From the NCBI RefSeq assembly GCF_000013345.1, contig NC_007777.1:3534001-3598000 (forward strand): a stretch of 64,000 nucleotides of DNA, given 5' to 3'. The notes below the pieces were generated by a model, which worked only from the letters and a program-made list of their open reading frames with translations, was not told the DNA's origin and did no database searches. Below, in pieces: positions 13,476 to 39,293 of the stretch (its first letter is position 1; each line of letters begins with the position of its first letter). The DNA is from Frankia casuarinae. Lineage in GTDB: Bacteria > Actinomycetota > Actinomycetes > Frankiales > Frankiaceae. The position numbers were made by a program, and so were the translations under genes.

Positions 13476-13506
13476 CCCCACCGCGCCACCCGCGGCGCGC
13501 CCCTGC

Positions 13507-13538: not shown

Positions 13539-13618
13539 TGGCATTCATCCTAGAACGACGGTACGATCATCCTTCAGCTGGAGCGAGCAGTCCGGAGGAT
13601 TTCACAGGTGGGAATCGG

Positions 13619-14662: not shown

Positions 14663-14897
14663 CCCTCGGGGATCAGGCACAAGAATCGGCCGCCCTCGAC
14701 CAACGGCGTCCTGCGCGGCATGGTTGGTATGCGACGATCAGCGCGGTGGGAGCGGGATGCGCGACCGGCCAGGTTCTCACCACCGGGATCCGGGGCACCG
14801 GGATCCCGGTGCGGCGGCCCAGTGGCGGACACGTGCCCCGGAGCTTGCCCCGCGCAAGGCCCGACGTCAGCGTCCCACGGATCGAGGAGTCGCCGCG

Positions 14898-16145
14898 ATG
14901 TCCAATACCCGGTCGCGGCTGGGACGGCGTCCCATCGCCATCACCGCCCTGGTGATCCTGGCCGCCATCGTCGGCGTCTTCATCGGCCGGGCCTTCGGCG
15001 GAGACGGCCGTAGCCCGATGCTCGTGAGCACGCCCCCGAGCACGCCCTCAGCGCAGACGGCGGCACCGGAACAGGCTCGGCGCGATGCGGCGACGGAGGC
15101 GAAGGCGAACCTGCACGCGACCACGTGCACGACCGTACGGATCATCGCCGGCCAGCCCCGCACCCCCTACTCGCAGTACGCGAGCACACTCGCGAAGCTC
15201 ATCAGTGATCCGGCGCTGAACGGCGGCAACGGGTGGCGCGCCTTTCCTGATTCGGACACGAGCGGGACGTCCCAGAACCTCAAGAATCTCGGGGTTCCGG
15301 AGAACCGGCGCTGCACTCTCGCGCTGGCCCAACTCAACGTGGTGGTGGACGCCCAGAACGGCCGGGGCGACTTCACCGGCGGGGCCGTCGAGGGTCTGAG
15401 CCTCGTCGGCCAGATCTATTACGACGTTCTCCAGCTCATCGTCCCGGCCGACTCCAGCATTCACAGCGCGGACGATCTGTGCGGCAAGACGGTCGAAAGC
15501 GGACTGCTCGACTCGGGCACCCACCAGATCGCCACCGTGCTGTTCCGTCAGATCACCCGGGTGAAGGGAGCGGGCTGCGTCGTCCGTCCGGTGACCGGGA
15601 ACCGGATAACCGAGGCGCTCCAGAAACTTCACTCCACCGGCGCGGATCACGCCGACGCGGTCCTGTGGGCGGCGGGCGCTCCCACGATGGCGGTCCAGGA
15701 ATATAACGACAGCTACCAGAAGATCAAATTCGTGCCACTCGACGACTGGCAGTCGGCGATCCAGCGGGACTGGTACTCCCAGTACCTCGATGTCGGAGCC
15801 AACGTCTTCACAAGGGCCGCTATCGAGCCGGGTGACTACAACCTCATCCCGTCCCAGCCGACAGCGACCCTCGCGGTGCCGAACGGCATCGTCGCCAGTA
15901 GGTACGCCGATCCCGCGCTGGTCGAGTTCGCCGCCTGGATGATGGACGAGCACTCCGCCGAGTTCAAGGCCACCCTGTGGGCCACTCATCAGGCGCAGGC
16001 GCAGGCGCGCCGCCTCGGTTTCGCGACTCCCGGCTCCTTCATCGCGACCAACATCTGCCGGTACGTCCCGCTACATCCGGCGGCGGAGAGATACTATACA
16101 CATGCGCTCGGTTATCCGACGGGATGCCCGGCCCCGACCCCCTGA
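14898..16145 (+). CDS. TAXI-type solute-binding protein with N-terminal membrane anchor
   Basis: 415 residues from ATG 14898 (gaggag upstream). Residues 10-32 are one hydrophobic segment (ITALVILAAIVGVFIGRAF) that works as signal anchor; no lipobox Cys. The rest matches the TAXI (TRAP-associated extracytoplasmic immunogenic) binding protein pattern: an initial glycine-poor strand TVRIIAGQPRTPYSQYASTLAKLI, the region CTLALAQLNVVVDAQNG, then VGQIYYDVLQLIVPADSSIHSADDLCGKTVESGLLDSGTHQIA. No TRAP membrane subunit is present, so it probably senses a ligand instead of feeding a transporter. Proximity to the TIR membrane protein suggests a sensor/effector pair; this is inference. Confidence 0.78.
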   Translation: MSNTRSRLGRRPIAITALVILAAIVGVFIGRAFGGDGRSPMLVSTPPSTPSAQTAAPEQARRDAATEAKANLHATTCTTVRIIAGQPRTPYSQYASTLAKLISDPALNGGNGWRAFPDSDTSGTSQNLKNLGVPENRRCTLALAQLNVVVDAQNGRGDFTGGAVEGLSLVGQIYYDVLQLIVPADSSIHSADDLCGKTVESGLLDSGTHQIATVLFRQITRVKGAGCVVRPVTGNRITEALQKLHSTGADHADAVLWAAGAPTMAVQEYNDSYQKIKFVPLDDWQSAIQRDWYSQYLDVGANVFTRAAIEPGDYNLIPSQPTATLAVPNGIVASRYADPALVEFAAWMMDEHSAEFKATLWATHQAQAQARRLGFATPGSFIATNICRYVPLHPAAERYYTHALGYPTGCPAPTP

Positions 16146-21291: not shown

Positions 21292-22131
21292 TCAGCGGCG
21301 GGGGTCCCGGGCGACGATGACCGCCATCGACGGCGCCCACCAGTAGCTGCAGTCCGCCGGCGGCTGCAGGCCGTCAACGACGCGCACGCTGAAGGTGCGG
21401 AAGTAGCGGAGCAGGGCCCGCTGATGCCGCCGGGACACCGAGTCGATCTCGTTCGAGTAGTAGGTGAACGAACCGCCGTCGGCCAGGTGGTCGGCGGCGT
21501 GCGCGAAGAAGTGCTCGGCGAAGGTGGAACTGCGCACGAAGTACTCGTCGACCTCGGTCTCGTCAAGGGGGTAGGTGTCAAAGAGGATGCCGTCGAACCG
21601 GCCGAGGCCGGGCATGGTCTCCTGCCAACGCCCGGTGACGATCTCCACCCCGCGGCGCCCCGCGGGGCGGGCCCACTGCTCGGCGACGCGCACCGTGGCC
21701 GGGTTCGCCTCGATGATCGTGTGCCGGGCCGGACCGATCTCCTGGACGAACCCGGCGGACAGGCCCAGGCCGAACCCGACCTCGAGGACGGTACCGCCCG
21801 GCCGGGTCACCTCGGCGGCCAGCGCCCGCATCAACGGCGCCTCCCAGGTCTGCATCACCTCCTGGCCGGAGACGAGCAGCGTGCCGTCGACCACCGCGGG
21901 GACCGCCGCGTCGATGGCTGTGTCGATCGTCGGACGAGGCGCCCCGGCCACCATCGTGCCGGCCGTCTCATCCAGCGCGCTGAGATCGGCGACGAACTCG
22001 TCAAGGGCCCGGTCGAGCAGCAACCGCCGTGGCTCCTCGGAGACCGGGGCGAGCAGGGAGCGCGAGGTCGGGGTCAGTGTCACGTCGAACTTCGCCGCAC
22101 GGCGGAGCACAGGACCTCCCAGATCATGCAT
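21292..22131 (-). CDS. SAM-dependent methyltransferase (guanidinoacetate/arginine N-methyltransferase-like)
   Basis: About 279 residues from ATG 22131; ATG 22158 would add nine residues and neither start has a ribosome site. A class I methyltransferase core is clear: VLEVGFGLGLSAGFVQEIGPARHTIIEANPATV (SAM loop and acidic residue), GRFDGILFDTYPLDETEV and a C-terminal SYWWAPSMAVIVARDP. The preceding VMQTWEAPLMRALAAEV resembles the substrate-side helix of guanidinoacetate N-methyltransferases and RMT2-type enzymes. The N-terminal 90 residues are unassigned. Substrate is uncertain. Divergent from the kinase gene and convergent with the CorC pair. Confidence 0.78.
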   Translation of the reverse strand: MHDLGGPVLRRAAKFDVTLTPTSRSLLAPVSEEPRRLLLDRALDEFVADLSALDETAGTMVAGAPRPTIDTAIDAAVPAVVDGTLLVSGQEVMQTWEAPLMRALAAEVTRPGGTVLEVGFGLGLSAGFVQEIGPARHTIIEANPATVRVAEQWARPAGRRGVEIVTGRWQETMPGLGRFDGILFDTYPLDETEVDEYFVRSSTFAEHFFAHAADHLADGGSFTYYSNEIDSVSRRHQRALLRYFRTFSVRVVDGLQPPADCSYWWAPSMAVIVARDPRR

Positions 22132-22291
22132 CTTTGCCGGTATTGCGCTATGTTCCATCCATACTGGTTCTGTCCATACTGCGATCTTCCATCCCTTACT
22201 GCGATACTCGGCCTGTGCACCCGCACCCGTCCAGGCATCCGCCATATCTGAGAGGGTCGCCGGTCTCGGCGCACCTTGGGAGCGGGGCACG
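22132..22291. promoter_or_regulatory. Divergent promoter region, methyltransferase / kinase
   Basis: 160 bases with lower GC than the surroundings, containing repeated tccatactg and ttactgcgata motifs near 22156-22210. These are the only places for promoters of the two divergent genes. No clear -35/-10 pair can be chosen. Confidence 0.45.
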
Positions 22292-24799
22292 GTGACGGGG
22301 ACGACACCACCTCCGCTGCCCGGCGACGCCGTGCGCCCGCTTCAGCTGACCGATCCGCGGCGGCTCGGGGTCTACCAGGTGATCGGCCGGCTCGGGCAGG
22401 GCGGCATGGGCACCGTCTTCCTCGGCCGGGCACCCGACGGAAGCGCCGTCGCGATCAAGATGATCAGGCCGGAGCTCGCGCAACGGCCCGAATTCCGCGC
22501 CCGGTTTGCCCGCGAGGCCGAGAGTGCTCGTCGGGTCCGCCGGTTCACCACGGCCGCCGTGCTGGACGCTGATCCGTACGGGCCCCAGCCCTATCTCGTG
22601 ACCGAGTTCGTCGAGGGTCCGACGCTGTCGAGGCGCGTCTCCGTACGGGGGCCGCTGCGGCCCGCCGATCTCGAACAGCTCGCGGTCAGCGTGACGACCG
22701 CCCTGAGCGCCATCCACGCGGCCGGGATCGTGCACCGCGACCTCACCCCCGGCAACGTCCTGCTGTCCCCGGTCGGCCCCAAGGTGATCGACTTCGGCCT
22801 GGCCCGCGAGTTCAACGCGGACACCGACCTGAGCCACAACGTCCGGCACGCCATCGGTACGCCCGGTTACATGTCCCCGGAGCAGATCCTCGACGCACCG
22901 ATCACCTCGGCGGTCGACATCTTCGCCTGGGGCGCCGTCATAATCTTCGCCGCCACCGGGCACGCGCCGTTCGGCACCGGTCGCATCGACGCCATTCTCT
23001 ACCGCATCGTCAACGAGCCGCCGCGGCTCGACGGAGTTGGCGGCGAGTTGCGCAACCTCGTCGAGATCGCGATGGCGAAGGACCCGGCGGCCCGGCCGAG
23101 CGCGGAGGAGCTGCGGACGGCGCTGATCGGCGGGGGTACCCTCCCCGCGCGCCCGGAGCCCGGCTCCATACCGTCCGGACCGCCCGGCGCCGGGCCCACC
23201 GGACGTGCCCGCCGCTGGGCTCGGCGCCGGCCGTCAGGCGCCGCGGGGTCGGCGCCCAGGTCGGAGCCGCCGCCCCGCGGCACGGGCAGCACCGGCAGCA
23301 CCGGCGGTACCGCCGCGAACGTGGCGGACATGCCCGTCACCCAGCTGTCCCCGCCGCCTGTCGCCTCGCCGCCGCCGATCCCAGCCCGGACCCCGCCGCC
23401 GATACCGGCCCGGACCTCCCCGCCGCGTGGACAGCCCGGGTCGGTACCCCCGCATCCAGCAGGAACCCCACACCCGCCGGCACCCAGCCCATCACCGGCC
23501 CCATCCAGGCTGCGGTGGTCTCGGACGGCACTGCTCGTCGCCGGACTCGCCATCGCGATCACCGCCGCAACGGTGCTGATCATCGTGCCGCGCGGCGGTG
23601 GCCCGTCGCCGGTGTCGGCGGCCGACCGCGCGTCCATCTCGTCGCGCCTGGCCGCGGACGCGGCGGCCCAGCGGGCCCGGCAACCGGACCTGGCCGGCCG
23701 GCTGAGCCTCGCGGCCTACCGGATCGCCCCGACGGAGGCCGCGCGCGCGGCCGTCCTCGCGTCCTTCGCCCAGTCCACCGCCGCGCGGATCCCCGCCGGC
23801 CCCGCGGCCTTCTCCGACATCGCGCTCAGCCCGGACGGCACGACCCTCGCCGGCACCGACGACACCGGCAGCCTCCACCTCTGGAAGGTCGACGCTGCCG
23901 GCCGGCCCACCGCCACCACCGGGGGCTCCGCGAACGACCATGCGCACGGCGTCGTGTTCGACCGCTCGGGCACCCGACTCGCGACGGGTGGGGAGACCGA
24001 CGCCGGCCGGCTATGGGACATCGCCGATCCGGCGCGCCCCCGGCCGCTCAGCACGCTCGACCCCCAGGCCACGCCGGTCCATCGGCTCGCGTTGTCGAGC
24101 AGCGCGCATCTGCTCGTCACCGCCGGCGAGGACTGGTCGGTGGGGCTGTGGGACGTCGCCGACCCGGCGCGGCCCGTCTCGATCCAGTTGCTGATCGGCC
24201 GCGCCGGGCCGGTGACGGATGTGGCACTGCGGCCGGACGGCGCCGTCCTCGCCATCGCCGGCGCCGGCGGCCCCGTGCAACTGTGGAACGTCCGCGACCC
24301 CCGCAGGCCCGTCCAGACGGCCTCGGTGCCCGGCCACACCGGTGCGGTGAACACCGTCGCGTTCAGTCCGGACGGACGGCGGCTGGCCACCGGCGGCGAC
24401 GACCGGATCCTGCAGGTCTCCGACGTCGGCGATCCCGACCATCCGCGGGTCCTGCGCCGGCTGTCCGGCCACACCGCCCCCGTCGCCGCCGTCGCCTTCA
24501 CCACCGACGATCATCTGGTGAGCGCGGACGGCGGTGGCGCGGTCGCCTACTGGGACCTCTCCGCCCCCACACCCCCGATGACCCCCCTGGGCGTCCTGGA
24601 CGCACCCGCCCGGGCGGTGGCCGGGACCGGCACCGAGACCGTCGCGCTGACCACCGACAAGGGGTCGGTCCTCCTCGGGACGCTCGACCCGGCCAGGCTG
24701 CGCCGGCTGGCCTGCGCCAAGCCGGGCGCGGCCCTGAGCCCGGCCGAATGGAGCCGGCTCGTTCCCCGCCTCCCCTACACCGACTCCTGCTCCGGTTAG
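22292..24799 (+). CDS. Transmembrane Ser/Thr protein kinase with WD40 repeats
   Basis: 835 residues from GTG 22292 (GGGAGCGGGG upstream). Kinase domain residues 27-285: Gly-loop GQGGMGTVFLG, Lys56 in VAIKMI, catalytic HRDLTPGNVLL with Asp150, DFG at 167-169, and GTPGYMSPEQI. Then a Pro-rich linker, one transmembrane helix near 411-432 (TALLVAGLAIAITAATVLIIV) and, outside, about six WD40-like repeats from 508 to 800 (VAFSPDGRRLATGGDDRILQ style). In the usual topology the kinase is inside and the beta-propeller outside, though an external WD40 propeller is not a standard sensor. Faces the Hsp70-PBP fusion gene across a hairpin. Confidence 0.92.
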   Translation: MTGTTPPPLPGDAVRPLQLTDPRRLGVYQVIGRLGQGGMGTVFLGRAPDGSAVAIKMIRPELAQRPEFRARFAREAESARRVRRFTTAAVLDADPYGPQPYLVTEFVEGPTLSRRVSVRGPLRPADLEQLAVSVTTALSAIHAAGIVHRDLTPGNVLLSPVGPKVIDFGLAREFNADTDLSHNVRHAIGTPGYMSPEQILDAPITSAVDIFAWGAVIIFAATGHAPFGTGRIDAILYRIVNEPPRLDGVGGELRNLVEIAMAKDPAARPSAEELRTALIGGGTLPARPEPGSIPSGPPGAGPTGRARRWARRRPSGAAGSAPRSEPPPRGTGSTGSTGGTAANVADMPVTQLSPPPVASPPPIPARTPPPIPARTSPPRGQPGSVPPHPAGTPHPPAPSPSPAPSRLRWSRTALLVAGLAIAITAATVLIIVPRGGGPSPVSAADRASISSRLAADAAAQRARQPDLAGRLSLAAYRIAPTEAARAAVLASFAQSTAARIPAGPAAFSDIALSPDGTTLAGTDDTGSLHLWKVDAAGRPTATTGGSANDHAHGVVFDRSGTRLATGGETDAGRLWDIADPARPRPLSTLDPQATPVHRLALSSSAHLLVTAGEDWSVGLWDVADPARPVSIQLLIGRAGPVTDVALRPDGAVLAIAGAGGPVQLWNVRDPRRPVQTASVPGHTGAVNTVAFSPDGRRLATGGDDRILQVSDVGDPDHPRVLRRLSGHTAPVAAVAFTTDDHLVSADGGGAVAYWDLSAPTPPMTPLGVLDAPARAVAGTGTETVALTTDKGSVLLGTLDPARLRRLACAKPGAALSPAEWSRLVPRLPYTDSCSG

Positions 24800-24989: not shown

Positions 24990-27752
24990 CTAGGCCGGTA
25001 CGGGTCCCACGCCGGCCGTCAGGCTCGCGAGCTTGGCGACGTTCTCCCCGACCGTGTCGTCGTTGCGGGGGACGTAGTGCGCGTCGAAGGCGATCTTCCG
25101 GCCGTTCGCCAGGTAGTAGCGCAGGAAGGCGGCGGTCGCTGGCCGGCGCAGGGCGTCCGTGCGGGCGTAGACGAACAGCGGCTTGCACAGCGGCAGGTAG
25201 AGGCCGGTACCGACCGACACGGCGTTCGGCGCGACGCACCCGTCACCATTGTTGATTTCGACACCGCGCAGCTTGGTGCCGAAGGTCTCGTAGGTGGGGA
25301 AGTCGAGGTAGCCGATGGCCGAGCGGTCGGCGGCCACGTCGTTGGCGACCCCGCTGAGATCGGTCTGCCGGTAGTCGCGGGACCGGTCACTGGCGTCACT
25401 GATCGTGGCGTTGAACACCTGCGCCTGCACGGAGCCGCGCGGCGGCCCGACAAACGTGATCGGCTCGTCCGGGAACGACGGGTCGATCTGGCTCCACCGG
25501 GTGACGGCGGAACCGGCCCCCCACACCTGCTTGACCTGCTGCAGGGTCAGACAGTGCAGCCAGGTGTTCCGCGGGTTGACCACGATCGGCAGGGTGTGGT
25601 GCGCCACCTCGAACCCGACGACCTTCTTCTCGCAGTCGGGGTTCTTGATGAACCCGGGATTGAGTTCGAACGAGGCGTCGGCGATGTCGGCCTTGCCGCT
25701 GCACAGCGCGGCGAAACCGTCCTCGGTCGTCGTGGACTCGATGCTGACGGTGACGTTGCGCTGGACCTGACGAAATTCGTTATAGGCGGTCTCGGTAATC
25801 GGGGCGACCTCCGAGGATCCCGCCACCCGGACGAGGTTCGCGGCGGAGGCGGGTGGCCCGGTCGGGCCGGTGGCGGATGGGGCCGGCGACGCGGTGACCG
25901 CCGGGGCGGCCACCGCATCCGCCCCGGAGCCCGCCCCGGAGTCACGGCCGGTCAGCACCACGGCGAAGGTCGTCCCGAGAGCCAGGAAGAGGACCACGAC
26001 AATGGCGGCGACGACCGCGGCCCGCCGGGAGCCGAAGATTCCCCGGCCGTCCCCGGCGGAGGCACCGTGCGGGCCGCCCACACCGCCCGTCGAGAAGTCC
26101 GAGGGCAGGTCGAGCTTCCCCGGCTGCCCGAGCAGAACGTGGTCCCGATCGGCGCCCACCGTCATGAGGCCGGGTGGGATCCGGTGACCGGACGTGTCGG
26201 ACGGGCCCGGCCCGCCGACGACGATCCCCGGCGGCGGGGAATCCGCCGCGCCACCCGAGGAGATCATCGTGTCGTCCCCGGCGCCCAAGCCGTGCGGCGC
26301 GGAGCCGTCCGGGCCGCTGAGCACCGTCGCCGCGGCCGTCACGCCGTCCGCCTCCGGCACGCCTCGGATCCCGGCCGGACCCGCCGCGCCCGCGAACCCC
26401 CTCGGCCCGGACAGCCCCCTCGGCCCGGACAGGAAGGGCGGCCGCGAGACCAGGTCCGCGGCGTCCGGCGGCCGGATCACCGCGGTGACGTCGGAGGGTT
26501 CCTGAGCAGAGGGTTCCTGGGCGTCACCGACCTCGCCCGACGCGCCGAAACCGCCGGCGGTCACCGCCCCGACGGCTCCAAAGGCCGCGGGCGCACCCGG
26601 AACACCCGGAACACCCGGAACACCCGGAACACCCGGTGCACCCGGTGCACCCGGTGCACTCCCGGCGCCGACGGCGCCGAACCGGTCAGCGAGGTCGGCG
26701 GCGAGCAGTGCCGCGCCCATCGCCACATCCGCGTCCGAACCGTGGTCGATCCGGCCGATCCCGCTGAAGGTCTCCCGCAGCCGGCGGGCCACCAGCGGAA
26801 GGTGGGAGATCCCGCCGGACAACAGGATCCGGGACAGCTCGGCGGAGGTCACCGGCACCGAGCGGAGCGCCCGGCGAAAGGTCATGATTGTGTCATCGAC
26901 AATCGGGCCGATGAGGGTCTCCAGCTCCGCCCGGCTCAGCGTGACGAAGGTATCGGCTCCGGGAAGGGAGACCGGAACGTCAACCTCGTCCTCACCGGAA
27001 AGGATCTCCTTCGCCTGCGCGCATTCCCGCCGCAGCCTGCCGAGCGCGGTCCGGATCATCGGGTCGGAACGGTCGAGCGCCGCACGCTCGACACCCGCGC
27101 CGGTCAGCACCCGGTCGACCAGGAGCTCGTCGAGCTCGAGGCCGGCGCCGTGGCGCAGACCCGCGGCCAAGCCGAGCAGCTGGAACCCGAACGGCGAGAA
27201 GGACAGGATCCCCGTGTCGAGGAAGCCGGCGCCGAAGTCGTACCATCCGACCAACTCGACGGTCTGGGTCGAGGAGCCGTGAGACAGCAGGGTTCCGATC
27301 GCGTCGGCGGCCGGGAACGCCGCGACGGGCACCGTGACATCGGAGAGCTGGCTCACGGCGTCCGCGAACACCTCGCGCCGGGCCGCCGACCAGAACGTCG
27401 GGAACGTCACGACGACCTGGTCCGGTTCCGACCCGAGCTGCTCGGTGGCGGCCGTGACGAGGTAGGACACCAACCGGGCAATCAGCCCCTCCCGGCTGTA
27501 GGCGGCACCCCCGAGCAGAACGGGACCGCTGTCCCCGAGCGGGCGCAGGAGGTCGGTTGCGGCACGCTCGGGGTCGACCAGCGACCGGCGGTCCGCCGAG
27601 CGCGCGAACTGCAGGCCACCGGCCGGGGCGGCGTAGATCACCGACGGCAGGCGACGCTGACCGCTCAGTTCGAGCACGCGGGGCCAGCCTCCGTCCGCCA
27701 CCCCGACGATCGTGTTCGCGGACCCGAGGTCGATACCCAGCTGATAGCTCAC
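24990..27752 (-). CDS. Fusion: Hsp70-like ATPase - transmembrane segment - PstS-like binding domain
   Basis: About 920 residues from GTG 27752 (GGGAG upstream); in-frame upstream starts exist but add unconserved sequence. Residues 1-365 are an Hsp70/actin-like nucleotide-binding domain: YQLGIDLGSANTIVGVADGG, VGWYDFGAGFLDTGILS and RILLSGGISHLPLV. No substrate-binding domain of DnaK follows; instead a long collagen-like Gly/Pro/Val linker, a single membrane helix near 577-602 (AAVVAAIVVVLFLALGTTFAVVL) and then, outside, a PstS/PBP-like domain (about 645-918; VRVAGSSEVAPITETAYNEF, ALCSGKADIADASF, PIVVNPRN). The arrangement suggests a receptor whose outer half binds a small ligand, perhaps an anion, and whose inner half is an ATPase. 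Function unknown; fusions of this kind are rare. Confidence 0.85.
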   Translation of the reverse strand: MSYQLGIDLGSANTIVGVADGGWPRVLELSGQRRLPSVIYAAPAGGLQFARSADRRSLVDPERAATDLLRPLGDSGPVLLGGAAYSREGLIARLVSYLVTAATEQLGSEPDQVVVTFPTFWSAARREVFADAVSQLSDVTVPVAAFPAADAIGTLLSHGSSTQTVELVGWYDFGAGFLDTGILSFSPFGFQLLGLAAGLRHGAGLELDELLVDRVLTGAGVERAALDRSDPMIRTALGRLRRECAQAKEILSGEDEVDVPVSLPGADTFVTLSRAELETLIGPIVDDTIMTFRRALRSVPVTSAELSRILLSGGISHLPLVARRLRETFSGIGRIDHGSDADVAMGAALLAADLADRFGAVGAGSAPGAPGAPGVPGVPGVPGVPGAPAAFGAVGAVTAGGFGASGEVGDAQEPSAQEPSDVTAVIRPPDAADLVSRPPFLSGPRGLSGPRGFAGAAGPAGIRGVPEADGVTAAATVLSGPDGSAPHGLGAGDDTMISSGGAADSPPPGIVVGGPGPSDTSGHRIPPGLMTVGADRDHVLLGQPGKLDLPSDFSTGGVGGPHGASAGDGRGIFGSRRAAVVAAIVVVLFLALGTTFAVVLTGRDSGAGSGADAVAAPAVTASPAPSATGPTGPPASAANLVRVAGSSEVAPITETAYNEFRQVQRNVTVSIESTTTEDGFAALCSGKADIADASFELNPGFIKNPDCEKKVVGFEVAHHTLPIVVNPRNTWLHCLTLQQVKQVWGAGSAVTRWSQIDPSFPDEPITFVGPPRGSVQAQVFNATISDASDRSRDYRQTDLSGVANDVAADRSAIGYLDFPTYETFGTKLRGVEINNGDGCVAPNAVSVGTGLYLPLCKPLFVYARTDALRRPATAAFLRYYLANGRKIAFDAHYVPRNDDTVGENVAKLASLTAGVGPVPA

Positions 27753-28004: not shown

Positions 28005-28057
28005 TGTGGAGGGTTAGGCACAGTCCAGCGGCCGTGGGCCGTTCCTAACCCTCCACA
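28005..28057. terminator. Hairpin overlapping the meaB stop codon
   Basis: tgtggagggttagg (28005-28018) is the exact reverse complement of cctaaccctccaca (28044-28057), giving a 14-bp stem around 25 bases. The right arm contains the TAG stop of meaB. On the plus strand ctttt follows the right arm. Bases 27870-28000 otherwise hold only short repeats of gaatggtgccg. Confidence 0.65.
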
Positions 28058-29139
28058 CTTTTCCGTCGTGGCTTTCCGTCGCGGCTTTCCGCGGCGTCGG
28101 AGGGTGCCGCGGCCCGGCCCTCGTGGGCGGCCAGGCCATCATGCGCGGCGAGGATGGCGTCGGCGGCCAGGCTCGGGGGGAGGGTGCCGTCGCGGACCCG
28201 CCGTTCAAGGTCCGGAGTGATCTCGCGGACCCCCGGATCGGCCCGCAGGCCCGCGAGCAGCCGATCGTGGACCATCGCCCACATCCAGTCGACCTGCTGG
28301 CGGCGGCGGCGGGCGGCGAGTTCGCCGGAGGCGTCGAGGGTGTCCTGATGCTTGACGATCTGCGCCCAGACAGTGTCCAGCCCCGTCCGCTCCACCGCGC
28401 TGCACGTCAGCACCGGGGTGTTCCAGTCCCGGAGACCGGCGGGGCCCTGCAGCAGCCGCAGCGCGCCGGCGAGTTCCCGGGCGGCACGGCGGGCGTCGAG
28501 CTCGTGCGGCCCGTCGGCCTTGTTCACCGCGATGACGTCGGCGAGCTCCAGCACCCCCTTCTTGATGCCCTGGAGCTGATCCCCCGTGCGGGCCAGGGTC
28601 AGGAACAGGAAGGTGTCGACCATGTCGGCGACGGTCGTCTCCGACTGGCCGACGCCGACCGTCTCGACCAGGACAACGTCGTAGCCCGCCGCCTCCATGA
28701 CGACCATCGCCTCGCGGGTCGCCTTGGCGACGCCACCGAGCGTCCCCGCGGTGGGCGAGGGCCGGATGAACGCCGCCGGATCGGTGGACAGCGCCGCCAT
28801 CCGGGTCTTGTCCCCCAGGATGCTGCCGCCGGTACGCGTCGAGGAGGGGTCGACGGCGAGCACCGCCACCTGGTTTCCCTTCCCGGTGAGCATGGTGCCC
28901 AGCGCGTCGATGAACGTCGACTTGCCCACCCCGGGCACCCCGGTGATGCCGATCCGACGGGCCTTGCCCGCGTGCGGCAGCAACGTCACCAGCAGCTGCT
29001 GCGCGAGCTCCTGGTGGTCGGGCCTGGTGGACTCGACGAGGGTGATGGCCCGCGCGATCCAGGTCCGCGACGAGGCCAGCACCCCGTCGGCGTACTCACC
29101 CGGATCGATCGGTCGTCGGGTCACCATGCCGGATACCAT
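28045..29139 (-). CDS. meaB: Methylmalonyl-CoA mutase-associated GTPase MeaB
   Basis: 364 residues. G3E-family GTPase that gates cobalamin delivery to, and protects, methylmalonyl-CoA mutase. Visible: Walker A GVPGVGKST (residues 66-74 or so), VAVLAVDPSSTRTGGSILGDKTRM, ETVGVGQSE and NKADG for guanine recognition. Start at GTG/ATG 29139 or ATG 29127; both close. Follows mutB by 27 bases, and forms the usual actinobacterial mutA-mutB-meaB operon. The C-terminal 40 residues are Ala/Arg-rich. Confidence 0.95.
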   Translation of the reverse strand: MVSGMVTRRPIDPGEYADGVLASSRTWIARAITLVESTRPDHQELAQQLLVTLLPHAGKARRIGITGVPGVGKSTFIDALGTMLTGKGNQVAVLAVDPSSTRTGGSILGDKTRMAALSTDPAAFIRPSPTAGTLGGVAKATREAMVVMEAAGYDVVLVETVGVGQSETTVADMVDTFLFLTLARTGDQLQGIKKGVLELADVIAVNKADGPHELDARRAARELAGALRLLQGPAGLRDWNTPVLTCSAVERTGLDTVWAQIVKHQDTLDASGELAARRRRQQVDWMWAMVHDRLLAGLRADPGVREITPDLERRVRDGTLPPSLAADAILAAHDGLAAHEGRAAAPSDAAESRDGKPRRKSVEG

Positions 29140-29166: not shown

Positions 29167-31431
29167 TCAGGCCGCGGGGTGAGCGGGGTGAGCGGGGTGA
29201 CCGAGCTGGGCCGACAGGGTCGCGAGCAGGTCCAGCGCGGCGTCGGCGATGACCGTGCCGGGCGGGAAGATCGCGGCGGCGCCGGCGGCCCGCAGCTCGT
29301 CGAAGTCGCCGGGAGGGATGACCCCGCCGACCACGATGAGGATGTCGGGCCGATCGAGCGCGGCGAGCTCCTCGCGCAGCGCGGGCACCAGGGTGAGGTG
29401 GCCGGCGGCCAGCGAGTTGACGCCGATGATCTGGACGTCCGCCTCGACGGCCTGGCGGGCGACCTCGGCCGGGGTCTGGAACAGCGGGCCGACGTCCACG
29501 TCGAAGCCGAGGTCGGCGAACGCGGTGGCGATCACCTTCTGGCCGCGGTCGTGACCGTCCTGGCCCATCTTCGCGACCAGGATCCGGGGCCGGCGACCCT
29601 CGGCGCGTTCGAAGGCGGCGGCGGCCTCGCGGGCGGCGACGATGTTACCGGCGGGTCCCGCCTCGTCCCGGTACACCCCGGAAATGGTACGGATCTGGCC
29701 CGCGTGACGCCCGTAGACCTTCTCCAGCGCGTCGGAGATCTCCCCGACCGTCGCCTGAGCCCGGGCCGCGTCGACGGCGAGCGTCAGCAGGTTCTGCTCC
29801 AGCCCGGGGCCGCGGCGCCCGTCGCGGGCCGCGTCGGCCGCCGCGGTCAGGGCGTGCAGCGCCGCCTCCACCGCGGCCGGGTCACGGTCGGCGCGCAGCC
29901 GGCGCAGCTTCTCGATCTGCTCGGCGCGCACCGCCGAGTTGTCGACCTTGAGCACCTCGATGCCCTCGTCCGCGTCGACGCGGTACTTGTTCACTCCGAT
30001 CAGCGGCTGGCGGCCGGAGTCGATGCGGGCCTGGGTGCGGGCGGCGGCCTCCTCGATACGCATCTTCGGGATCCCAGCGTCGATGGCCTGCGCCATGCCG
30101 CCCGAGGCCTCGACCTCGTCGATGTGCTCCCAGGCCCGGCGGGCCAGGTCGTGGGTGAGCCGCTCGACGTAGTAGCTGCCGCCCCACGGGTCGATCACCC
30201 GGGTGGTGCCGGACTCCTGCTGCAGCAGCAGCTGGGTGTTGCGGGCAATACGGGCCGAGAAGTCCGTCGGCAGGGCCAGCGCCTCGTCGAGGGCGTTGGT
30301 GTGCAGCGACTGGGTGTGCCCCTGGGTGGCGGCCATCGCCTCCACGCAGGTGCGCACCACGTTGTTGAACACGTCCTGGGCGGTCAGCGACCAACCCGAG
30401 GTCTGCGAGTGGGTCCGCAGCGACAGCGACTTGGCGCTCTTCGGGGTGAACTGGTTGACCAGCCGCGACCACAGCAGCCGGGCCGCGCGCAGCTTGGCGA
30501 CCTCCATGAAGAAGTTCATGCCGATCGCCCAGAAGAACGACAGCCTTGGTGCGAACGCATCGATGTCCAGCCCCGCGCCCAGCCCTGCCCGGATGTACTC
30601 GACCCCGTCGGCCAGGGTGTAGGCGAGCTCCAGATCGGCCGTCGCCCCGGCCTCCTGCATGTGGTAGCCGGAGATCGAGATCGAGTTGAACCGCGGCATC
30701 CGCCGCGAGGTGAAGGAGAAGATGTCCGAGATGATCTGCATCGACGGCTGCGGCGGGTAGATGTAGGTGTTGCGGACCATGAACTCCTTGAGGATGTCGT
30801 TCTGGATGGTCCCGGCGAGCTGCCCCGGGGCCACCCCCTGCTCCTCGGCCGCGACGATGTAGAGTGCCAGCACCGGCAGCACGGCGCCGTTCATGGTCAT
30901 CGACACGCTCATCTTGTCCAGCGGGATACCGTCGAACAGCTGGCGCATGTCGAGGATGGAGTCGATGGCGACGCCGGCCATGCCGACGTCGCCGGTGACC
31001 CGTGGGTGGTCGCTGTCGTAGCCGCGGTGGGTCGGCAGGTCGAAGGCGACCGACAGGCCCTTCTGCCCGGCGGCGAGGTTGCGCCGGTAGAAGGCGTTCG
31101 ACGCGGCGGCGGTGGAGAACCCGGCGTACTGGCGGATGGTCCACGGCTGGGTGACGTACATCGCCGGGTATGGGCCGCGCAGGAAGGGCGCGATCCCCGG
31201 GTAGGTGCCCAGGAAGTCCAGGCCCGCGGTGTCGGCGGCGGTGTAGAGCGGCTTCACCGCGATGCCCTCGGGGGTATCCCAGGTCAGCGCGTCGGCGTCC
31301 TTGCCGGTCGCCGCCTCCAGGGCGGCCCGCCACTCACCCTCCGCCGTGTCCGCCCCGGCCGGCGTGGTGCCCAGCTCCACCGCGGAGAAGTCCGGGATCA
31401 TCGTGGCACGTTGCGAGCTGTCCGTGGACAT
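29167..31431 (-). CDS. mutB: Methylmalonyl-CoA mutase large subunit
   Basis: 754 residues from ATG 31431, which shares one base with the mutA stop. Catalytic subunit that interconverts (R)-methylmalonyl-CoA and succinyl-CoA. TIM-barrel segments [54 protein letters not shown], and the C-terminal cobalamin domain with the base-off ligand motif DGHDRG (in [26 protein letters not shown]) and [14 protein letters not shown]. Ends in short Pro/Ala/His repeats. Heterodimer with MutA. Confidence 0.97.
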
Positions 31432-33413
31432 CAGGCCACCCCAACCTCGGCGAGCGCCGCCCGCAGCACGGCGACGGCGTCGCATCCAGTGAACACGTAC
31501 CCGCCGATGCCCGCGGCGGCGTCGGTCCGCGCGCGCGCACCGGCCTGGCCCGCGAGCCACACCCGGCTCGCCCCGGCGGCCCGCAGCGCCTCGGCGACCG
31601 GCCCGGCGTGCTCGGCGTATACCTTGTCGGCCGAGCACAGACAGGCCACGGTGGCCCCGGAGGCGCTGAACGCCGCCGCGATCGACGCCGGGTCCGTGCC
31701 CGGGCCGGACGTCGGAGTCTCGAACCCGCCCGCCTGGAACAGGTTGGCGGCGAAGGTGGCGCGCGCGGTCGAGGCCGCCGCGCTGCCCAGGGTGGCCAGG
31801 AAGACCACAGGCCGGCCGCCCGTCGCCGCCAAGTGCGCGTCGGAACGGGCGCGCAGCTCCTCGAAGGTGAGGTCGTAGGTGACCTCCGGCAGCCCGGCGC
31901 CCACCGCCGTGGCGGCCTCCCCGCCGGCGCCGGCGGGGCTCGCGGCGGGCACGGGGCTCGCGGCGGGCACGGGGCTCGCGGCGGGCACGGGGCTCGCGGC
32001 GGGCACGGCGGGCCGCTCGGGGAGCTTCTCGCCCAGGTTCGGGAACTCGCTCACCCCGGTGATCGGGTCCCGCCGGTGGGCGATCGCGTCGGAGCGCGTC
32101 GCCCAGGTGGCCGCGATCCGCTCGGCGACGAGCCCGGACCGCAGGCCGGCGACGATCCCGCCGGCCCGCTCGATCTCGGTGAACCAGGCCCAGGCCGCCT
32201 CGGCGAGCCCGGCGGTGAGCGACTCGACGTACCAGGAGCCACCGGCCGGGTCGGTCACCCGGATCAGGCTCGACTCCTCCTGCAGGAGGGCCTGGGTGTT
32301 GCGGGCGATCCGGCGGGAGAAGTCGTCGGACCGGCCGAGGCGCGTGTCGAACGGCAGGACAGTGACCGCGTCGGCGCCGCCGACACCGGCGCCGAAGCAG
32401 GCCAGCGTCGTGCGCAGCATGTTCACCCAGGGATCCCGGCGGGTCATCATCGCCGCCGAGGTGACCGCGTGCTGACGCTGGGCCCGGTCGGCCGGCTCAG
32501 CGCCGCACATCTCGGCGACCCGTGACCACATCCGGCGGGCGGCCCGCAGCTTCGCGATCGAGGAGAACTGATCGGCGGTGACCGCGTAGCGAAACTCGAT
32601 CTGGGCGAGCGCCTCGGCAAGGCTCAGGCCGGCCTCGGTGAGCTCCCGCAGGTAGGTGACGCCGGTGGCCAGTGACGCCCCAAGCTCCTCGGCGTCACTG
32701 CCACCCGCGCGGTGGTACGGCTGGGCGTCGACGACGAGGGCGCGGATCCCGGGGAACTCCCGCACGCACCGGCCGGCGAGCGACACCGCCTCGGCGAGGC
32801 CCACCGGGCCGCCGGCCGGCAGGCCGGTCCGCGCGGCCAGACCGATCGGGTCGGCGCCGAGGCTGCCCGTGAGCTGCGAACCGGGCAGGCCGCGGGCGGC
32901 GACGAGGCCGAAGAACTCCTCGGCGGCCGCGGCGGTGAGCTCCCCCGCGTCCAGCACGATCGGCGCGAGGTCGAGGTAGACCTCGCGCAGCACCGCGCCG
33001 AGCCCGCCGATCGGCAGACCGGCGGGCCCCAGCCGCAGCCAGAGCGAGGTGGCGCCGTTCTCCAGATCGGCGAGGACCGCTTCGGCGGCGAGCGTGGCAT
33101 CGGGGTTGTCATGCAGCGCGCGGACATCCCACCCGCCGGTGCCCGCGCCCTGCGCCCGCCCACCCCGCACGAACGGGGCGAACCCCGGCAGGCCCACCCC
33201 GCCGGCGGGGGTGTTCTCGGCGGTGTAGAGCGGACGGATCCGCAGACCGTCGTAGGTCCGCGTGGCCAACAGCTCCTCGACCTCGCCGGGAGTAGTCGCC
33301 TCGGTCGCCACGCCGGACTTGCGCAGCACCTGCAGGACGAGCGTCTGCCAATCGGCGCGCGTCGCCTCCGGAAAGTCTGCGGCCAGCGACAACCCGGCCG
33401 ATGGAACGCTCAT
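31431..33413 (-). CDS. mutA: Methylmalonyl-CoA mutase small subunit
   Basis: 660 residues from ATG 33413. Same fold as MutB ([71 protein letters not shown]), but it lacks the DxHxxG cobalamin-ligand motif in the C-terminal domain, as expected for the non-catalytic partner. Between the two domains is a repeated Pro-Ala-Ala-Ser-Pro-Val linker coded by an 18-bp tandem repeat. First gene of the operon; the promoter must lie in 33414-33505. Confidence 0.96.
31935..32006. repeat. 18-bp coding tandem repeat in mutA linker
   Basis: Four exact copies of ggggctcgcggcgggcac (31935-31952, then every 18 bases to 32006). They encode PAASPV units in the linker between the two MutA domains. Exact identity points to recent slippage expansion. 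Confidence 0.9.
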
Positions 33414-33505: not shown

Positions 33506-34780
33506 TCACGATGCCCACAGCCGCTCAGCCACCGCGGCTGTGCCGGCGGCGGACGCCTCAGCGACCGCTCTGGACGCCTCGGCCCGCTCGGCCGCCCGCG
33601 CCGCCAGGACCCGGGTCACCGCCGAGACGACCCGCTCCGGATACCAGGTCACGTCGGCCACGCTGAAGCGCAGCACCGTCCAGCGCAACGCGGCGAGGAT
33701 GTTGCCGCGATGACGGTCCTGGTAGATCATCGCCGGCGGGCTGGTGGCCGAGAAGGTGTCCGCCTCCACGTCGAGTCGCTGCGCCGGCCAGGCGAGATCC
33801 AGCCGGGTGATGATCTGACCGGTCCCGTCCATGACCGGCCACTGCAATTCCACGGGCGCGAGCCCGTTGTCGGCCAACAGCAGCCGCAGCCGGGTCTCCA
33901 GGGGGGTCTCGGCCCGGCCGTCGGCCAGCGACCACCAGTCGGTCGTCTGCCGGAAACCGCGCCGCCCCTCGGCGGCCGCCCGTGCCCCCGCCAGGCTCGG
34001 CACCAGGCCGCGGTGCAGGGCTGCGTCCAGGTGGGCGACCGCCACCTCACGCGACTGGGCGGCCAGCACGAGATCCGCCAGCGTCCGCTCCGGCGAGGTG
34101 AGTGGGATCCCACCCAACTCGACGCGCTGGTCGACGTCGAGATCGCTGAAGTGCAGCCGGATCCCGCGCGGCTGGGCCCGGGTCTGCCGAGCCGGAAGAA
34201 GAAGGTGCACGGGTTCGGCGGAGCTTTCCGGAACCTCGAGCGGAAAACCGTGGAGCCGGGCGGCGGTGATCCCGCAGACGACGGCTCGGGGACGCCCGAT
34301 GAGCGCGGCCCTTACCCGTGCCGAAAATGGCGAGAAGAAGACCGGGAGAATCGGCGTTGTATTTTCACCGCCGACGACCGACGCCGCGTGTCCGGGGCCC
34401 GCGGTGATGGCACCATGGCGCTTTCTTCGTCGGCGCGCGACGTCGTTCCGGACAAGTCCGGCGGATTCCTTCTCCCGGATTTCAGAATGCTCGGCGCGCC
34501 GCCGGTCCCCCGGCCGCGGGACGTCGTTGACGGAGCCGGGGAGCTCCGTCGGGCCGAGAGGTACGACGAAGACACCGCGCACCGGATGGCTCCACTGGCC
34601 AGAGTGGACGAGCTGGCGCAGCTGGCCGCGGGTCAACCCAGCGGCCATCGCCTGCCGGTAGGTGATCGCACCCCCCTGGCGACCGGCGATGCGGACCGCG
34701 GGGTCGAAACCGGGATAGCGCACGGGACGGGTCGGCGGGGACGAGGCCGAAGCGGAAAACGTCATGGACCGAGAATCCAT
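33506..34780 (-). CDS. AbiEi-antitoxin-like N-terminus with DUF559/Vsr-like C-terminal nuclease fold
   Basis: About 424 residues (start among GTG 34807, ATG 34780, ATG 34765; uncertain). N-terminal part (to about residue 75) has the winged-helix pattern of AbiEi family antitoxins: AITYRQAMAAGLTRGQLRQLVHSGQWSHPVRGVFVV. The last 130 residues look like the DUF559/Vsr-type endonuclease fold: ETPLETRLRLLLADNGLAPVELQWPV and TRLDLAWPAQRLDVEADTF. Such fusions are frequent single genes in actinobacteria and no AbiEii toxin gene lies beside it, so an antitoxin role is doubtful. Between VFVVP and RVRAALIGRPRAV lies an extra stretch of about 75 residues with different composition and no domain. Confidence 0.7.
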   Translation of the reverse strand: MDSRSMTFSASASSPPTRPVRYPGFDPAVRIAGRQGGAITYRQAMAAGLTRGQLRQLVHSGQWSHPVRGVFVVPLGPTELPGSVNDVPRPGDRRRAEHSEIREKESAGLVRNDVARRRRKRHGAITAGPGHAASVVGGENTTPILPVFFSPFSARVRAALIGRPRAVVCGITAARLHGFPLEVPESSAEPVHLLLPARQTRAQPRGIRLHFSDLDVDQRVELGGIPLTSPERTLADLVLAAQSREVAVAHLDAALHRGLVPSLAGARAAAEGRRGFRQTTDWWSLADGRAETPLETRLRLLLADNGLAPVELQWPVMDGTGQIITRLDLAWPAQRLDVEADTFSATSPPAMIYQDRHRGNILAALRWTVLRFSVADVTWYPERVVSAVTRVLAARAAERAEASRAVAEASAAGTAAVAERLWAS

Positions 34781-35023
34781 CAGGTAGCCCCGGTAATCCA
34801 GCGCCACAGGCCACCTGTGGATAACTCCTCACAGGAGGACGACGAACGTAGGGCCCAGCGGTAACCCAGCCGGCTGTCACCGGAACCATTTCCTCAAGCT
34901 GGCTTCGGAAGCGTAGCCGCTACCTGGCCGAGTTGCTTGCGCGAATGTACGATAACGACGGCGTGCACCGTCCGATAACGTAAGATAGTCCACGGACGGC
35001 CGGTTCGACGGACGGCCGGCTGG

Positions 35024-36399: not shown

Positions 36400-36491
36400 C
36401 TGGGCTCCCTCGCACGGTGACGTATCACTAGATGGTTCCTCGCAGGTCAACGCATGACCGCCCGGACATGCTCCCACCGGCTGGCCGAGGG

Positions 36492-38675
36492 TCAGGAACC
36501 GGCACCGCCGCGAACGCGGTTGAGCCGGTCCACCGCCGCCTGCGCGTCACCGATCGTGGCGAAGTCGACCGCGACGAACGTCGGGATCCGCCCGCGCTCC
36601 TGGCGACAACGCTGTGCCCGGGTAAACACGGTCTCGGCGGCGTTCGCGCCGAGGGCGGCACGGCGGCTGGGCGCGGCGGCGGTGAGCCAGTGGTTCATCA
36701 GGAGCAGCGAGGCACCGTCCACGCCCCGGTTGCGGGCGCAGGTTCGCAGATCCTCGGGTTTCTTCGCATCGAACGGAGTGTCCTCGGCATACCGGTAGAA
36801 GCTGCGCAGGAACGTGCCCGGCAGGTCCTGCCGCTCGGTGAAGACCACCAGGCGTCGGCCCGAGGCGACCATCTCGCGCAGGGTCGGCCATCGGCCATGC
36901 GGATCCTCCGGCGGCGTCGTCACCATCCCCGCGAGGCCCGCGGCCGCCACGCCGCCGGCGATCTCGCTCGCCGGCACCTCATTATCCTGGATGATCAGCG
37001 TCACGACCTCGGTGGGATTACGGTTCATCCAGTCCCGGACCCGAGTCAGCTCCGCCACGAAGTCGAGGGAGCCGAGCTGGCACAGGTCATGGCACAGCCA
37101 GGTGCCGGGGCGTTCCGACCGGGCGCCTCGCGTCAGCGGGGCGAGCGCGTCGCGGGTCGCGGGCGGCAGGGTCTGCAGATAGGCGTCGACCTGGGTCGGC
37201 GATGTCCAGTGGTGCACGTCGAGCAGCAGGGCGCGCACCCCCAGGTCGAGCTGGTGCGTGATCGCCGGGTCCTGGGCAGGCCCGAGAAACCGGTCCTCGC
37301 TGGTGGCCATCGCGTTGTGGGTGGCCAGGTAGCTCACCTGGTCATAGCGCCGGTCGCACAGCGCCTGCTGGCTGTTGCAGAGCTTGCGGGCCTCGGCGGC
37401 GGCGCCCGGGAAGGCCGTCCAGGTCACGATGATCATCAGGGGCGCCGCGAGGGCGAACGCCGTGGCGACCCGGCGCCGCCGGCCGGTCCGGTTCCACCGG
37501 GCGGACACCGCGACGAGCCGCGACAATCCGTAGCCGACCAGGCCGGCCACCAGCGTCCAGGCCACGATCCGCAGGAAGTCGCTCTCGAGCGTGCCGTAGG
37601 CGCGCGAGGAGAAGTCGACCAGCACTGCGCCGGCTCCCGGCGGCAGGGGCGACGACGACCTGTCCAGCGAGGTCAGCGGATTCGGCAGCGCGATGCGCAG
37701 GACGACGCCGAGCAGCCCCGCACCAACGCCGGCGAGGACCACCGCACCGGTCGCGGCCCGGACCCGGGACACCCCCCGCCGCCCGGCCAGCACGACGATG
37801 CTGACCATGGCCGCCGTCATGATCAGGGCGAGCAGGAGGGAGACCCACACCAGGGTCGCGGCGACGTCGTGCAGCCGGTCGATCGCGACGATCATCGGCC
37901 GGTCACGCAGATCCGACAGACGGACCCCGAGATCGAGGGTGGATCCGTGGAGATACACCTGGAGCCGGCCGATGGCCGTCTCGTCGCCCCGGAAGACCTC
38001 CGGACCGACCAGCGCCAGCGCTCCGGCGATGTTGCCCGACCTCAGCAGGGCGCGCAGCGGAGCCTCGATGCGCGCCCGGGTGTCGGCGTCCACCCGGTCC
38101 AGCACCACGGGCAGGACGCGGTCGGTGTCCTGCGGGGAGAGCTCGATCGTGGGCAGGGACTTCGGCGGGCGCCCGGCGGCGATGTCGTCGAGCGCGGTGA
38201 CGACACCGTGGGTGAACTCCTGCACGGTGGTGACCTGGTAGCTGGTGCCGGCGCCCAGTTCACCGGCGACGTACCGGTTGGCCAGGCCCGAGATGTTGTC
38301 GAAGATCGGCCGGAGATCGACGGCGAGTTCGACGTCGTCCGTGTCGGCCCGCAGGTAGGCGACGATCCGGTTGATCTGCTCGTCGGTCATCGCCTGGATC
38401 GTCGACGGGGGCAGCACCGTGCGCAGGTTCGCGGTGACGAGGGAGCTGTCGATCGGGAGGCCGGCCAGCAACGTGTCGACCGCGGGATCGGGCAGTACCT
38501 GGGTGTAGACGCGGTCGAAGGCGTCGGCCCGGTTCAGCGACTGCGAATAGAAGGCCGGGTTCAGCACGGTCCGCCACGCGGTGATGACGACGACCAGCGG
38601 CAGCCAGCAGAGCACGACGAGGGCGACGAGGGCGACGTGCGCGAGGCGCCCCCGCTCCCCTCCTCGGCGACCCAT
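36492..38675 (-). CDS. Membrane protein with C-terminal PI-PLC-like phosphodiesterase domain
   Basis: 727 residues. N-terminal membrane helix (LAHVALVALVVLCWLPLVVVI), a large outside region to about residue 265 with no fold I recognise, three or four membrane helices between 265 and 430 (ATLVWVSLLLALIMTAAMVSIVVLAG, GAVVLAGVGAGLLGVVLRIAL), then the PI-PLC X-like barrel: SYLATHNAMATSEDRFLGPAQDPAITHQLDLGVRALLLDVHHW, with the first catalytic His in THNAM and the Asp/His pair in LLLDVHHW, and WLCHDLCQLG with the second. Likely a calcium-independent phosphodiesterase anchored in the membrane; substrate unknown. Four bases after ends the adenylate kinase gene, so they are co-transcribed. Confidence 0.8.
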   Translation of the reverse strand: MGRRGGERGRLAHVALVALVVLCWLPLVVVITAWRTVLNPAFYSQSLNRADAFDRVYTQVLPDPAVDTLLAGLPIDSSLVTANLRTVLPPSTIQAMTDEQINRIVAYLRADTDDVELAVDLRPIFDNISGLANRYVAGELGAGTSYQVTTVQEFTHGVVTALDDIAAGRPPKSLPTIELSPQDTDRVLPVVLDRVDADTRARIEAPLRALLRSGNIAGALALVGPEVFRGDETAIGRLQVYLHGSTLDLGVRLSDLRDRPMIVAIDRLHDVAATLVWVSLLLALIMTAAMVSIVVLAGRRGVSRVRAATGAVVLAGVGAGLLGVVLRIALPNPLTSLDRSSSPLPPGAGAVLVDFSSRAYGTLESDFLRIVAWTLVAGLVGYGLSRLVAVSARWNRTGRRRRVATAFALAAPLMIIVTWTAFPGAAAEARKLCNSQQALCDRRYDQVSYLATHNAMATSEDRFLGPAQDPAITHQLDLGVRALLLDVHHWTSPTQVDAYLQTLPPATRDALAPLTRGARSERPGTWLCHDLCQLGSLDFVAELTRVRDWMNRNPTEVVTLIIQDNEVPASEIAGGVAAAGLAGMVTTPPEDPHGRWPTLREMVASGRRLVVFTERQDLPGTFLRSFYRYAEDTPFDAKKPEDLRTCARNRGVDGASLLLMNHWLTAAAPSRRAALGANAAETVFTRAQRCRQERGRIPTFVAVDFATIGDAQAAVDRLNRVRGGAGS

Positions 38676-38678
38676 GGC

Positions 38679-39293
38679 CTACCGACAGACAGGCAGACCC
38701 GGATGGGCCCGCAGACCCGGATGGGCGACGTCCGCCAGCATCTCCTCGATGCGGGCCGCAACCTCGTCCGGGCTGCCGGAACCGTCCACCGTGCGCAGTA
38801 GGCCACCCCGCTGGTAGTAGCGGCGCAGTGGTGCGGTCTCCTGCTCGAAGACCTTCAACCGGCGACGGGCGGTGTCCTCCGCGTCGTCAACCCGGTCCTC
38901 GGTGCGGGACCGGCGCCGGATGCGGTCGAGCACCTCGTCGACGTCGACGTCGAGGTCGACGACCGCGTCGAGCGGGCCGCGGGTCGCCACGAGCATCCGG
39001 TCCAACGCCTCGGCCTGGGGGTAGGTCCGGGGGAACCCGTCGAACAGGAACCCCACCGCACAGTCGACGCCGCTCTCGAGCCGGTCGGCGACGATGTCGA
39101 GCACGATCTCGTCGGGGACCAGCTCGCCCGCGCGGACGTAGCGCTCCGCGCGACGGCCCAGCGGCGTACCCGCGGCAATCTGCCGGTCGAACAGCCGGCC
39201 GGTCGAGATCGAGGGGATGCCGTGCCGGGCGCTGATGCGAGCGCCCTGGGTTCCCTTGCCGGAGCCAGGTGGACCGAGCAGCACGAGCCTCAT
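38679..39293 (-). CDS. adk: Adenylate kinase (short-LID form)
   Basis: 204 residues. P-loop GPPGSGKGT at 7-15, then ISTGRLFDRQI, VPDEIVLDIVADRL, GFLFDGFPRTYPQAEALD and the LID entry RIRRRSRTEDRVDDAEDTARRRL. The LID is short with no zinc Cys, as in other actinobacterial and archaeal-like forms. It makes ADP from AMP and ATP. Here it is not in the ribosomal-protein operon next to secY/map, where actinobacteria keep their main adk, so it may be an extra copy. Ends at tandem small repeats (AHPGLRAHPGL). Confidence 0.85.
   Translation of the reverse strand: MRLVLLGPPGSGKGTQGARISARHGIPSISTGRLFDRQIAAGTPLGRRAERYVRAGELVPDEIVLDIVADRLESGVDCAVGFLFDGFPRTYPQAEALDRMLVATRGPLDAVVDLDVDVDEVLDRIRRRSRTEDRVDDAEDTARRRLKVFEQETAPLRRYYQRGGLLRTVDGSGSPDEVAARIEEMLADVAHPGLRAHPGLPVCR

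Follow-up and report, generated by a model that had tools for sequence, protein, structure and literature searches.

A membrane-spanning fusion of an Hsp70-type nucleotide-binding domain with a PstS-like domain in Frankiaceae, a candidate non-catalytic partner of a Hanks kinase

Within a stretch of 64,000 nucleotides of Frankia casuarinae DNA (NC_007777.1, positions 3,534,001 to 3,598,000; hereafter the window, taken from a genome of 5.43 Mb on a single contig), one gene on the minus strand (24990-27752) encodes an Hsp70/DnaK-type nucleotide-binding domain (NBD) joined through a membrane helix to a PstS-type PBP domain. The protein is real, conserved and unusual. We tentatively propose, giving the idea a little less than an even chance, that it serves as a single-pass, non-hydrolysing signalling or scaffold subunit paired with a nearby membrane Hanks kinase. 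The domain order, the charge-predicted topology, the grouping of the NBDs in one clade, the residue losses, the purifying selection and the conserved nearby kinase gene were computed here; from them we infer a co-receptor or scaffold role for the kinase, contact with it, the class of ligand and the direction of signalling.

The whole gene is a single open frame without a stop, giving 920 amino acids (aa) when counted from the GTG at 27752; an alternative earlier start, the TTG at 27869, would give 959 aa. From the N terminus, and throughout on the minus strand, the protein comprises the NBD (residues 1-356, 26685-27752), a low-complexity, G/P-rich cytoplasmic linker (about residues 357-577, 26022-26684), a single membrane helix (residues 578-602, 25947-26021), an outer stalk joining helix and PBP domain (25839-25946) and the PBP domain itself (residues 639-920, 24993-25838). 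An artefact of two genes joined by a frameshift, named beforehand as a way in which the original prediction could fail, was rejected: the window frame is uninterrupted, and a search for the same domain order found the two halves sharing a single frame in 26 of 35 Frankiaceae genomes, the named records with the full fusion belonging to Frankia and Parafrankia. Split or truncated copies occur in four further genomes, namely as two frames in G007 (copy A at locus L020, with a frame break between the halves), as halves on two contigs in G008 and G033, and as the PBP side only in G012; the remaining five genomes, one of them 63% complete, have no fusion. Outside the family, no fusion was seen among 358 other genomes of the class in a PBP search at E 1e-30. 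The PBP alignment was matched in 45 of these 358 at that threshold, twice in long frames (G379 and G203), both of which we rejected as additional fusions: the stretches fetched carry PstS-type frames that stand alone, 420 and 394 aa long, and no NBD was matched in them. Several Frankiaceae carry a second paralog (B) with the same domain order. Paralog B of Frankia QA3 (L036:13150-18316) has its NBD and its membrane-PBP part in different frames, and the kinase and propeller there are likewise in two frames; in F. torreyi (L039), fusion and kinase each occupy one frame.

The NBD is well supported as an Hsp70 fold. Pfam HSP70 matched with an E value of 1e-29 (103.7 bits against a curated cut-off of 20.6), the nearest sequence in the Protein Data Bank (PDB) was a DnaK (2v7y, E 6e-29), and the AlphaFold model reached a predicted local distance difference test (pLDDT) score of 90.9, with Hsp70s, DnaK included, making up all of the top 50 Foldseek fold matches. 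The best stretch covers positions 105-373 of the 599-position profile and is followed by linker, helix and PBP domain; the peptide-binding part of the chaperone, which the original prediction had called missing, is unmatched.

The catalytic glutamate of Hsp70s is E171 in DnaK numbering. Catalytic residues were read by alignment to the genome's own DnaK-type protein, and the window NBD has L69 at the position of K70, A148 at that of E171 (family alignment), A175 at G197 and F177 at T199, with D194 retained as D172. For E171, the HMMER alignment against the PDB shifts the neighbouring residues slightly, and neither alignment places a Glu there. Counts cover fused copies whose NBD could be read (27 of A and 7 of B), 30 other membrane proteins with the same type of NBD (described below) and three soluble Hsp70s of this genome; three A, two B and nine other membrane rows were added to a first alignment for this purpose, two of the five A and B rows being partial. 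Among the PBP-fused NBDs, K70 and E171 are each retained in 0 of 34 and G197 in 0 of 33, and T199 survives in 2 of 33 (G021 and G030); all four residues are kept in 30 of 30 membrane proteins with other tails and in 3 of 3 soluble Hsp70s. Because K70 and E171 are gone from all of these PBP-fused copies and T199 from nearly all, residues which Hsp70s need for hydrolysis, the NBD of this branch looks like a pseudo-ATPase. Exchange of K70 or T199 for Ala in DnaK abolishes hydrolysis and spares ATP binding, as stated in excerpts of PMC5561102 and likewise of PMC9691929. Copy A keeps D8 (26/26), D194 (26/27), the second G of the adenosine-site GG (27/27) and K270 (27/27), so nucleotide may still bind to it.

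In a tree of 53 rows (24 A, 5 B, 21 other membrane proteins and three soluble Hsp70s, without the rows added for the later residue recount), the PBP-fused NBDs formed one clade with a support of 100/100 and a long stem of 0.61, among the other membrane-anchored NBDs. The nesting of the clade inside that set has a branch support of only 83/89, and long branches such as that of G016 meet at this point. Both halves of the protein are under purifying selection, with ratios of nonsynonymous to synonymous substitution (dN/dS) that range from 0.27 to 0.41 in the NBD and from 0.18 to 0.20 in the PBP half (eight comparisons, four each), indicating weaker constraint on the NBD; these are NG86 values, since YN00 gave none in four of the eight comparisons.

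Linker and topology were compared in 25 A and 4 B copies. Between NBD and helix, the linker spans 75-253 aa and is unconserved. The window linker contains eight consecutive Gly-X-Y triplets, a run matched by 1 of 500 shuffles of that linker; a run of eight occurs in one other copy, and the remaining copies of the 29 have one to five. We therefore rejected a collagen identity as a feature of the family, the Gly-X-Y run being local to a low-complexity linker. Of the order originally predicted (Hsp70 NBD, collagen-like linker, helix, PBP), the succession of domains held up by Pfam, PDB and helix prediction, and the collagen-like character did not as a family trait. In all 29 copies, among them that of the window, the N-terminal flank of the single hydrophobic helix is the more positive one, and the NBD is therefore predicted to lie inside and the PBP domain outside, as judged from hydropathy and flank charge. 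A reversed topology was rejected on the same charge criterion.

The outer domain belongs with PstS proteins by sequence and departs from them in its pocket. Pfam PBP_like_2 (PF12849) matched with E 1.1e-18 (68.5 bits against a cut-off of 27), the NCBIfam PstS profile TIGR02136 aligned over positions 11-294 of 295 with 151.7 bits, under its cut-off of 206.6, and the closest PDB match was 4jwo, a 'Phosphate binding protein' (E 6e-36). The fold assignment rests on these profiles, as the AlphaFold model of the ectodomain, built with nine sequences, was of low confidence (pLDDT 44); structure prediction bore out the inner half of the protein. We aligned the pockets of 30 A copies, 7 B copies and 5 stand-alone PBPs, the nearest ones fetched from among matches in the 45 genomes outside the family and a few inside it. 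In 37 of 37 fused copies, Glu648 replaces the Thr of GSST, Phe or Tyr695 the Arg of DASR and Val775 the Gly of SGT, each of these replaced residues being present in 5 of 5 stand-alone relatives; position 776 is Gln, His or Pro in all 37 (Q776 in the window, which has F695) versus the Thr of SGT in 5 of 5, and His718 is found in all 37 where the stand-alone relatives have Asn. In PstS structures the altered positions are phosphate contacts, which agrees with the 4jwo alignment. Judged by these residues, the outer domain does not qualify as a standard binder of phosphate, and a phosphate receptor is disfavored. The same genome encodes another, stronger PBP_like_2 match (4.4e-52), in which the usual PstS motifs were seen by eye, and no pst transporter genes were recognised among the neighbours examined (the kinase gene, meaB, the mutase and CNNM-type genes), a set that does not include every nearby frame. 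All 36 PBP-fused copies that could be read at this point have a fifth Cys, Cys856 (25185-25187), and 0 of 5 stand-alone relatives do. The number of conserved Cys is therefore odd in nearly all copies, and Cys856 could be unpaired or link two chains by an intermolecular disulfide.

The gene convergent to the fusion gene encodes a Hanks Ser/Thr kinase (21575-24799, plus strand, in an open frame that begins far upstream of the kinase domain). Its kinase domain (22373-23113) looks intact, carrying VAIK, HRD and DFG, and is followed by one membrane helix (23531-23587) and a WD40-type propeller (about 23813-24562) predicted to lie outside. Among the 15 genomes in which the flanks of copy A were read, 14 have the kinase or the propeller at most 2.6 kb away (the kinase domain in 11, the propeller only, at contig ends, in 3); gene positions add G005 and G019, bringing the genomes with a kinase gene within 2.6 kb to 16. 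Of the 14 pairs, 12 are convergent, and the two at L083 and L084 share a strand, their frames being 140 bp apart. Beside paralog B, 4 of 6 loci have the kinase on the same strand, at a distance of 88-128 bp from frame to frame. VAIK, HRD and DFG were present in 11 of 12 kinase frames. At the divergent locus L087, the kinase is the sole neighbour from the window that was found among frames of at least 230 aa. Kinase orthologues, defined by at least 64% identity to the window neighbour, were found in 17 genomes, with a second one at 72% in G013; of 21 family genomes, 17 have the fusion together with the orthologue, 2 have neither (G015 and G018), and in 2 the fusion stands without the orthologue (G012 and G020).

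On this basis, a mechanism can be sketched. The outer domain, its phosphate pocket rebuilt around an invariant Glu, would bind something other than phosphate, perhaps a ligand that is cationic or an amine, or else a partner that is a protein or belongs to the cell wall. Once binding or clustering had taken place outside, the flexibly tethered NBD would come close to the kinase. With part of a nucleotide site and no catalytic residues, the NBD might be phosphorylated by the kinase there, or serve as a module for docking or for nucleotide occupancy.

Several observations weigh against this proposal, and its rivals draw on some of them. One is that part of the PstS site persists: S646, T676 and S694, and also a Ser or Thr at 774, are conserved in 37 of 37 copies. 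Together with D8, D194 and GG being kept in nearly all A copies, and with a domain order and topology that fit, this speaks for a receptor in which phosphate or another oxyanion outside influences the cycle of an active Hsp70-type ATPase inside. We regard such a receptor as highly improbable: K70 and E171 are lost in 34 of 34 copies and T199 in 31 of 33, the other phosphate-site residues are replaced, with an invariant Glu in the place of Thr, and 75-253 aa of linker lie between NBD and helix. As the catalytic residues are gone, the pocket is rebuilt and the linker is long and unconserved, rigid conformational coupling to an ATPase is unlikely, and the part of the original prediction in which an outside ligand acts on an actin-fold ATPase inside was not borne out. 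Proximity or clustering would be a simpler route than rigid transmission, and the neighbouring kinase, by the nearness of its gene, would be a likelier output than an ATPase inside. A non-catalytic co-receptor of the Hanks kinase is thus a better working model than an ATPase-coupled receptor of the phosphate type.

The nucleotide site supplies the next points. S274 is replaced by Ala in 23 of 27 A copies, and the losses in paralog B comprise D8 (5 of 7 copies), D194 (4 of 6) and the second G of GG (6 of 6); nucleotide binding by the NBD is therefore doubtful in B and unproven in copy A. These losses also bear on a second rival, in which the NBD binds ATP or ADP without turnover, its shape or partners follow the nucleotide level, and the outer domain serves only for placement at the membrane or wall. 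Such an occupancy switch would make sense of the retention of D8, D194, GG and K270 in copy A and of the purifying selection on the NBD, and the K70A and T199A variants of DnaK still bind ATP (excerpts of PMC5561102). Yet the architecture persists although B has lost much of the nucleotide site and most A copies lack S274, and an outer domain more constrained than the NBD would be odd for a mere anchor, so we consider this rival unlikely.

The remaining points concern the kinase. Of the three kinase motifs, only HRD was matched by patterns in L087. At 2 of 6 paralog B loci, no kinase was found in the flank read. In 4 of 14 genomes (L037, L038, L039 and L056), a gap of 2.3-2.5 kb holds a frame of about 371 aa (for example L037:13875-14987), and fusion gene and kinase gene may therefore not adjoin in these genomes. 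The kinase orthologue of G004 is on a different contig despite 19 kb being available downstream of the gene; G020 has the fusion and no kinase match at E 1e-80, with runs of N in the flank; and the draft G012 has no kinase orthologue. Moreover, much else is syntenic across Frankia, so the nearness of the kinase is partly general gene order. If the protein had a structural or cell-wall role, drawing partners from the cytoplasm to a site in the envelope, and the kinase gene beside it were only syntenic, this would account for the conserved order, for the missing kinase orthologue of G020, for the remote kinase of G004 and for the intervening frame, and the invariant extra Cys with its possible intermolecular disulfide would suit such a role as well. 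However, the kinase is still close by at loci in which neither meaB nor the mutase genes were seen (L087, and the propeller part in L086), and its nearness survives the change in orientation; a purely structural role seems improbable to us.

Beyond the fusion itself, 30 further proteins among the loci fetched combine the same type of NBD with a linker, one helix and other tails; they come from Frankiaceae, Pseudonocardia, an Acidimicrobiales metagenome-assembled genome and a few other groups of the class. In the Acidimicrobiales genome (L049), two such proteins stand in tandem (9881-12940 and 12944-15688), each with an outside FGE-sulfatase domain recognised by Pfam, and both retain the Hsp70 catalytic residues. 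Other tails recognised by Pfam are a ricin-type lectin (L059, with L064 and L067 similar by eye) and a Vgb-lyase-type propeller (L060); for three more (L060:3692-4222, L063 and L071), Pfam returned nothing. The tails of the Pseudonocardia proteins are of low complexity, and some of the Frankiaceae proteins stop shortly past the helix. The ectodomains thus appear, from the sequences, to be exchanged on a constant inner module, much as in receptor kinases. Extending this, the transmembrane receptors of Actinobacteria might include a class built like receptor kinases, with an Hsp70-type NBD in the position of the kinase and with swappable outer domains (PstS-like, ricin-type lectin, FGE-sulfatase-like, Vgb-lyase-type propeller); the members without PBP look catalytically intact, and the Frankiaceae branch would have re-specialised NBD and phosphate-binding domain as a non-catalytic co-receptor of a propeller-bearing Hanks kinase. 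We hold this broader scheme to be possible, with considerable doubt. In full-text searches of open-licence literature, subscription papers being outside their scope, we recognised no description of proteins with an NBD, a membrane helix and an ectodomain.

Actinobacterial receptor-type Hanks kinases such as PknB and PknD consist of a cytoplasmic module, a linker, one helix and a swappable outer domain. The Frankia protein has the same layout, but with an Hsp70-type NBD replacing the kinase. Relative to the DnaK/Hsp70 family (PF00012), its NBD is complete, as judged from sequence, structure model and fold comparison, but it lacks the peptide-binding domain as well as K70, E171, G197 and T199, is anchored in the membrane and carries an outer domain. 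Relative to PstS proteins (TIGR02136; 4jwo), it shows a near full-length profile match and a strong match to a solved member, but its domain falls under the family cut-off, has several phosphate-site residues replaced and is tethered to an NBD. The nearest described proteins, going by excerpts of the respective papers, are Hspa13 and the HSP70 proteins of GTPase-centred systems that lack a substrate-binding domain. Hspa13/STCH (PMC9691929) likewise has an Hsp70 NBD without that domain, but it is an animal protein of the endoplasmic reticulum and retains the Lys and Thr that the authors mutated for inactivation, and a PBP domain goes unmentioned in the excerpts. The HSP70 proteins beside GAP1-N2 GTPases (PMC7159879) similarly consist of the HSP70 domain alone, in actinobacteria and firmicutes, but their neighbourhoods hold GTPases, HSP70, GrpE and FNIII proteins, and neither a membrane helix nor a PBP tail is mentioned in the portion of the paper considered. 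For a solute-binding protein serving a kinase, GlnH-GlnX-PknG of mycobacteria offers a precedent: according to excerpts of PMC6069109, an outside solute-binding protein is proposed to serve a Ser/Thr kinase, but the system comprises three separate proteins with an amino-acid ligand, and no Hsp70 domain is named there.

Elsewhere in the window, the upstream neighbour of the fusion gene, on the same strand, is meaB (28045-29139, minus strand), encoding a methylmalonyl-CoA mutase-associated GTPase, which was present in 11 of 14 copy-A loci compared with unequal flank lengths. Upstream of meaB lie two methylmalonyl-CoA mutase genes (29167-33413, minus strand; frames 29167-31638 and 31431-33413, starts provisional), which we regard only as genomic context of the fusion gene. 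Near them, a frame at 33509-34807 has an AbiEi-type antitoxin regulator domain (Pfam E 2e-7), and the frame at 13217-14659 has a TIR domain (Pfam E 5e-39). Within 36432-45584, no Pfam match at 1e-6 was obtained for three long frames of the plus strand (789, 573 and 1550 aa), and the minus strand also has long frames there.

If the proposed reading is true, bacterial membrane receptors would have taken up an Hsp70 domain as their inner module, and the Frankiaceae branch would supply a pseudo-ATPase counterpart of pseudokinases. The stimuli that activate Hanks kinases of this kind are called an outstanding question in an excerpt of PMC6069109, and the fusion protein offers a candidate partner for one such orphan kinase.

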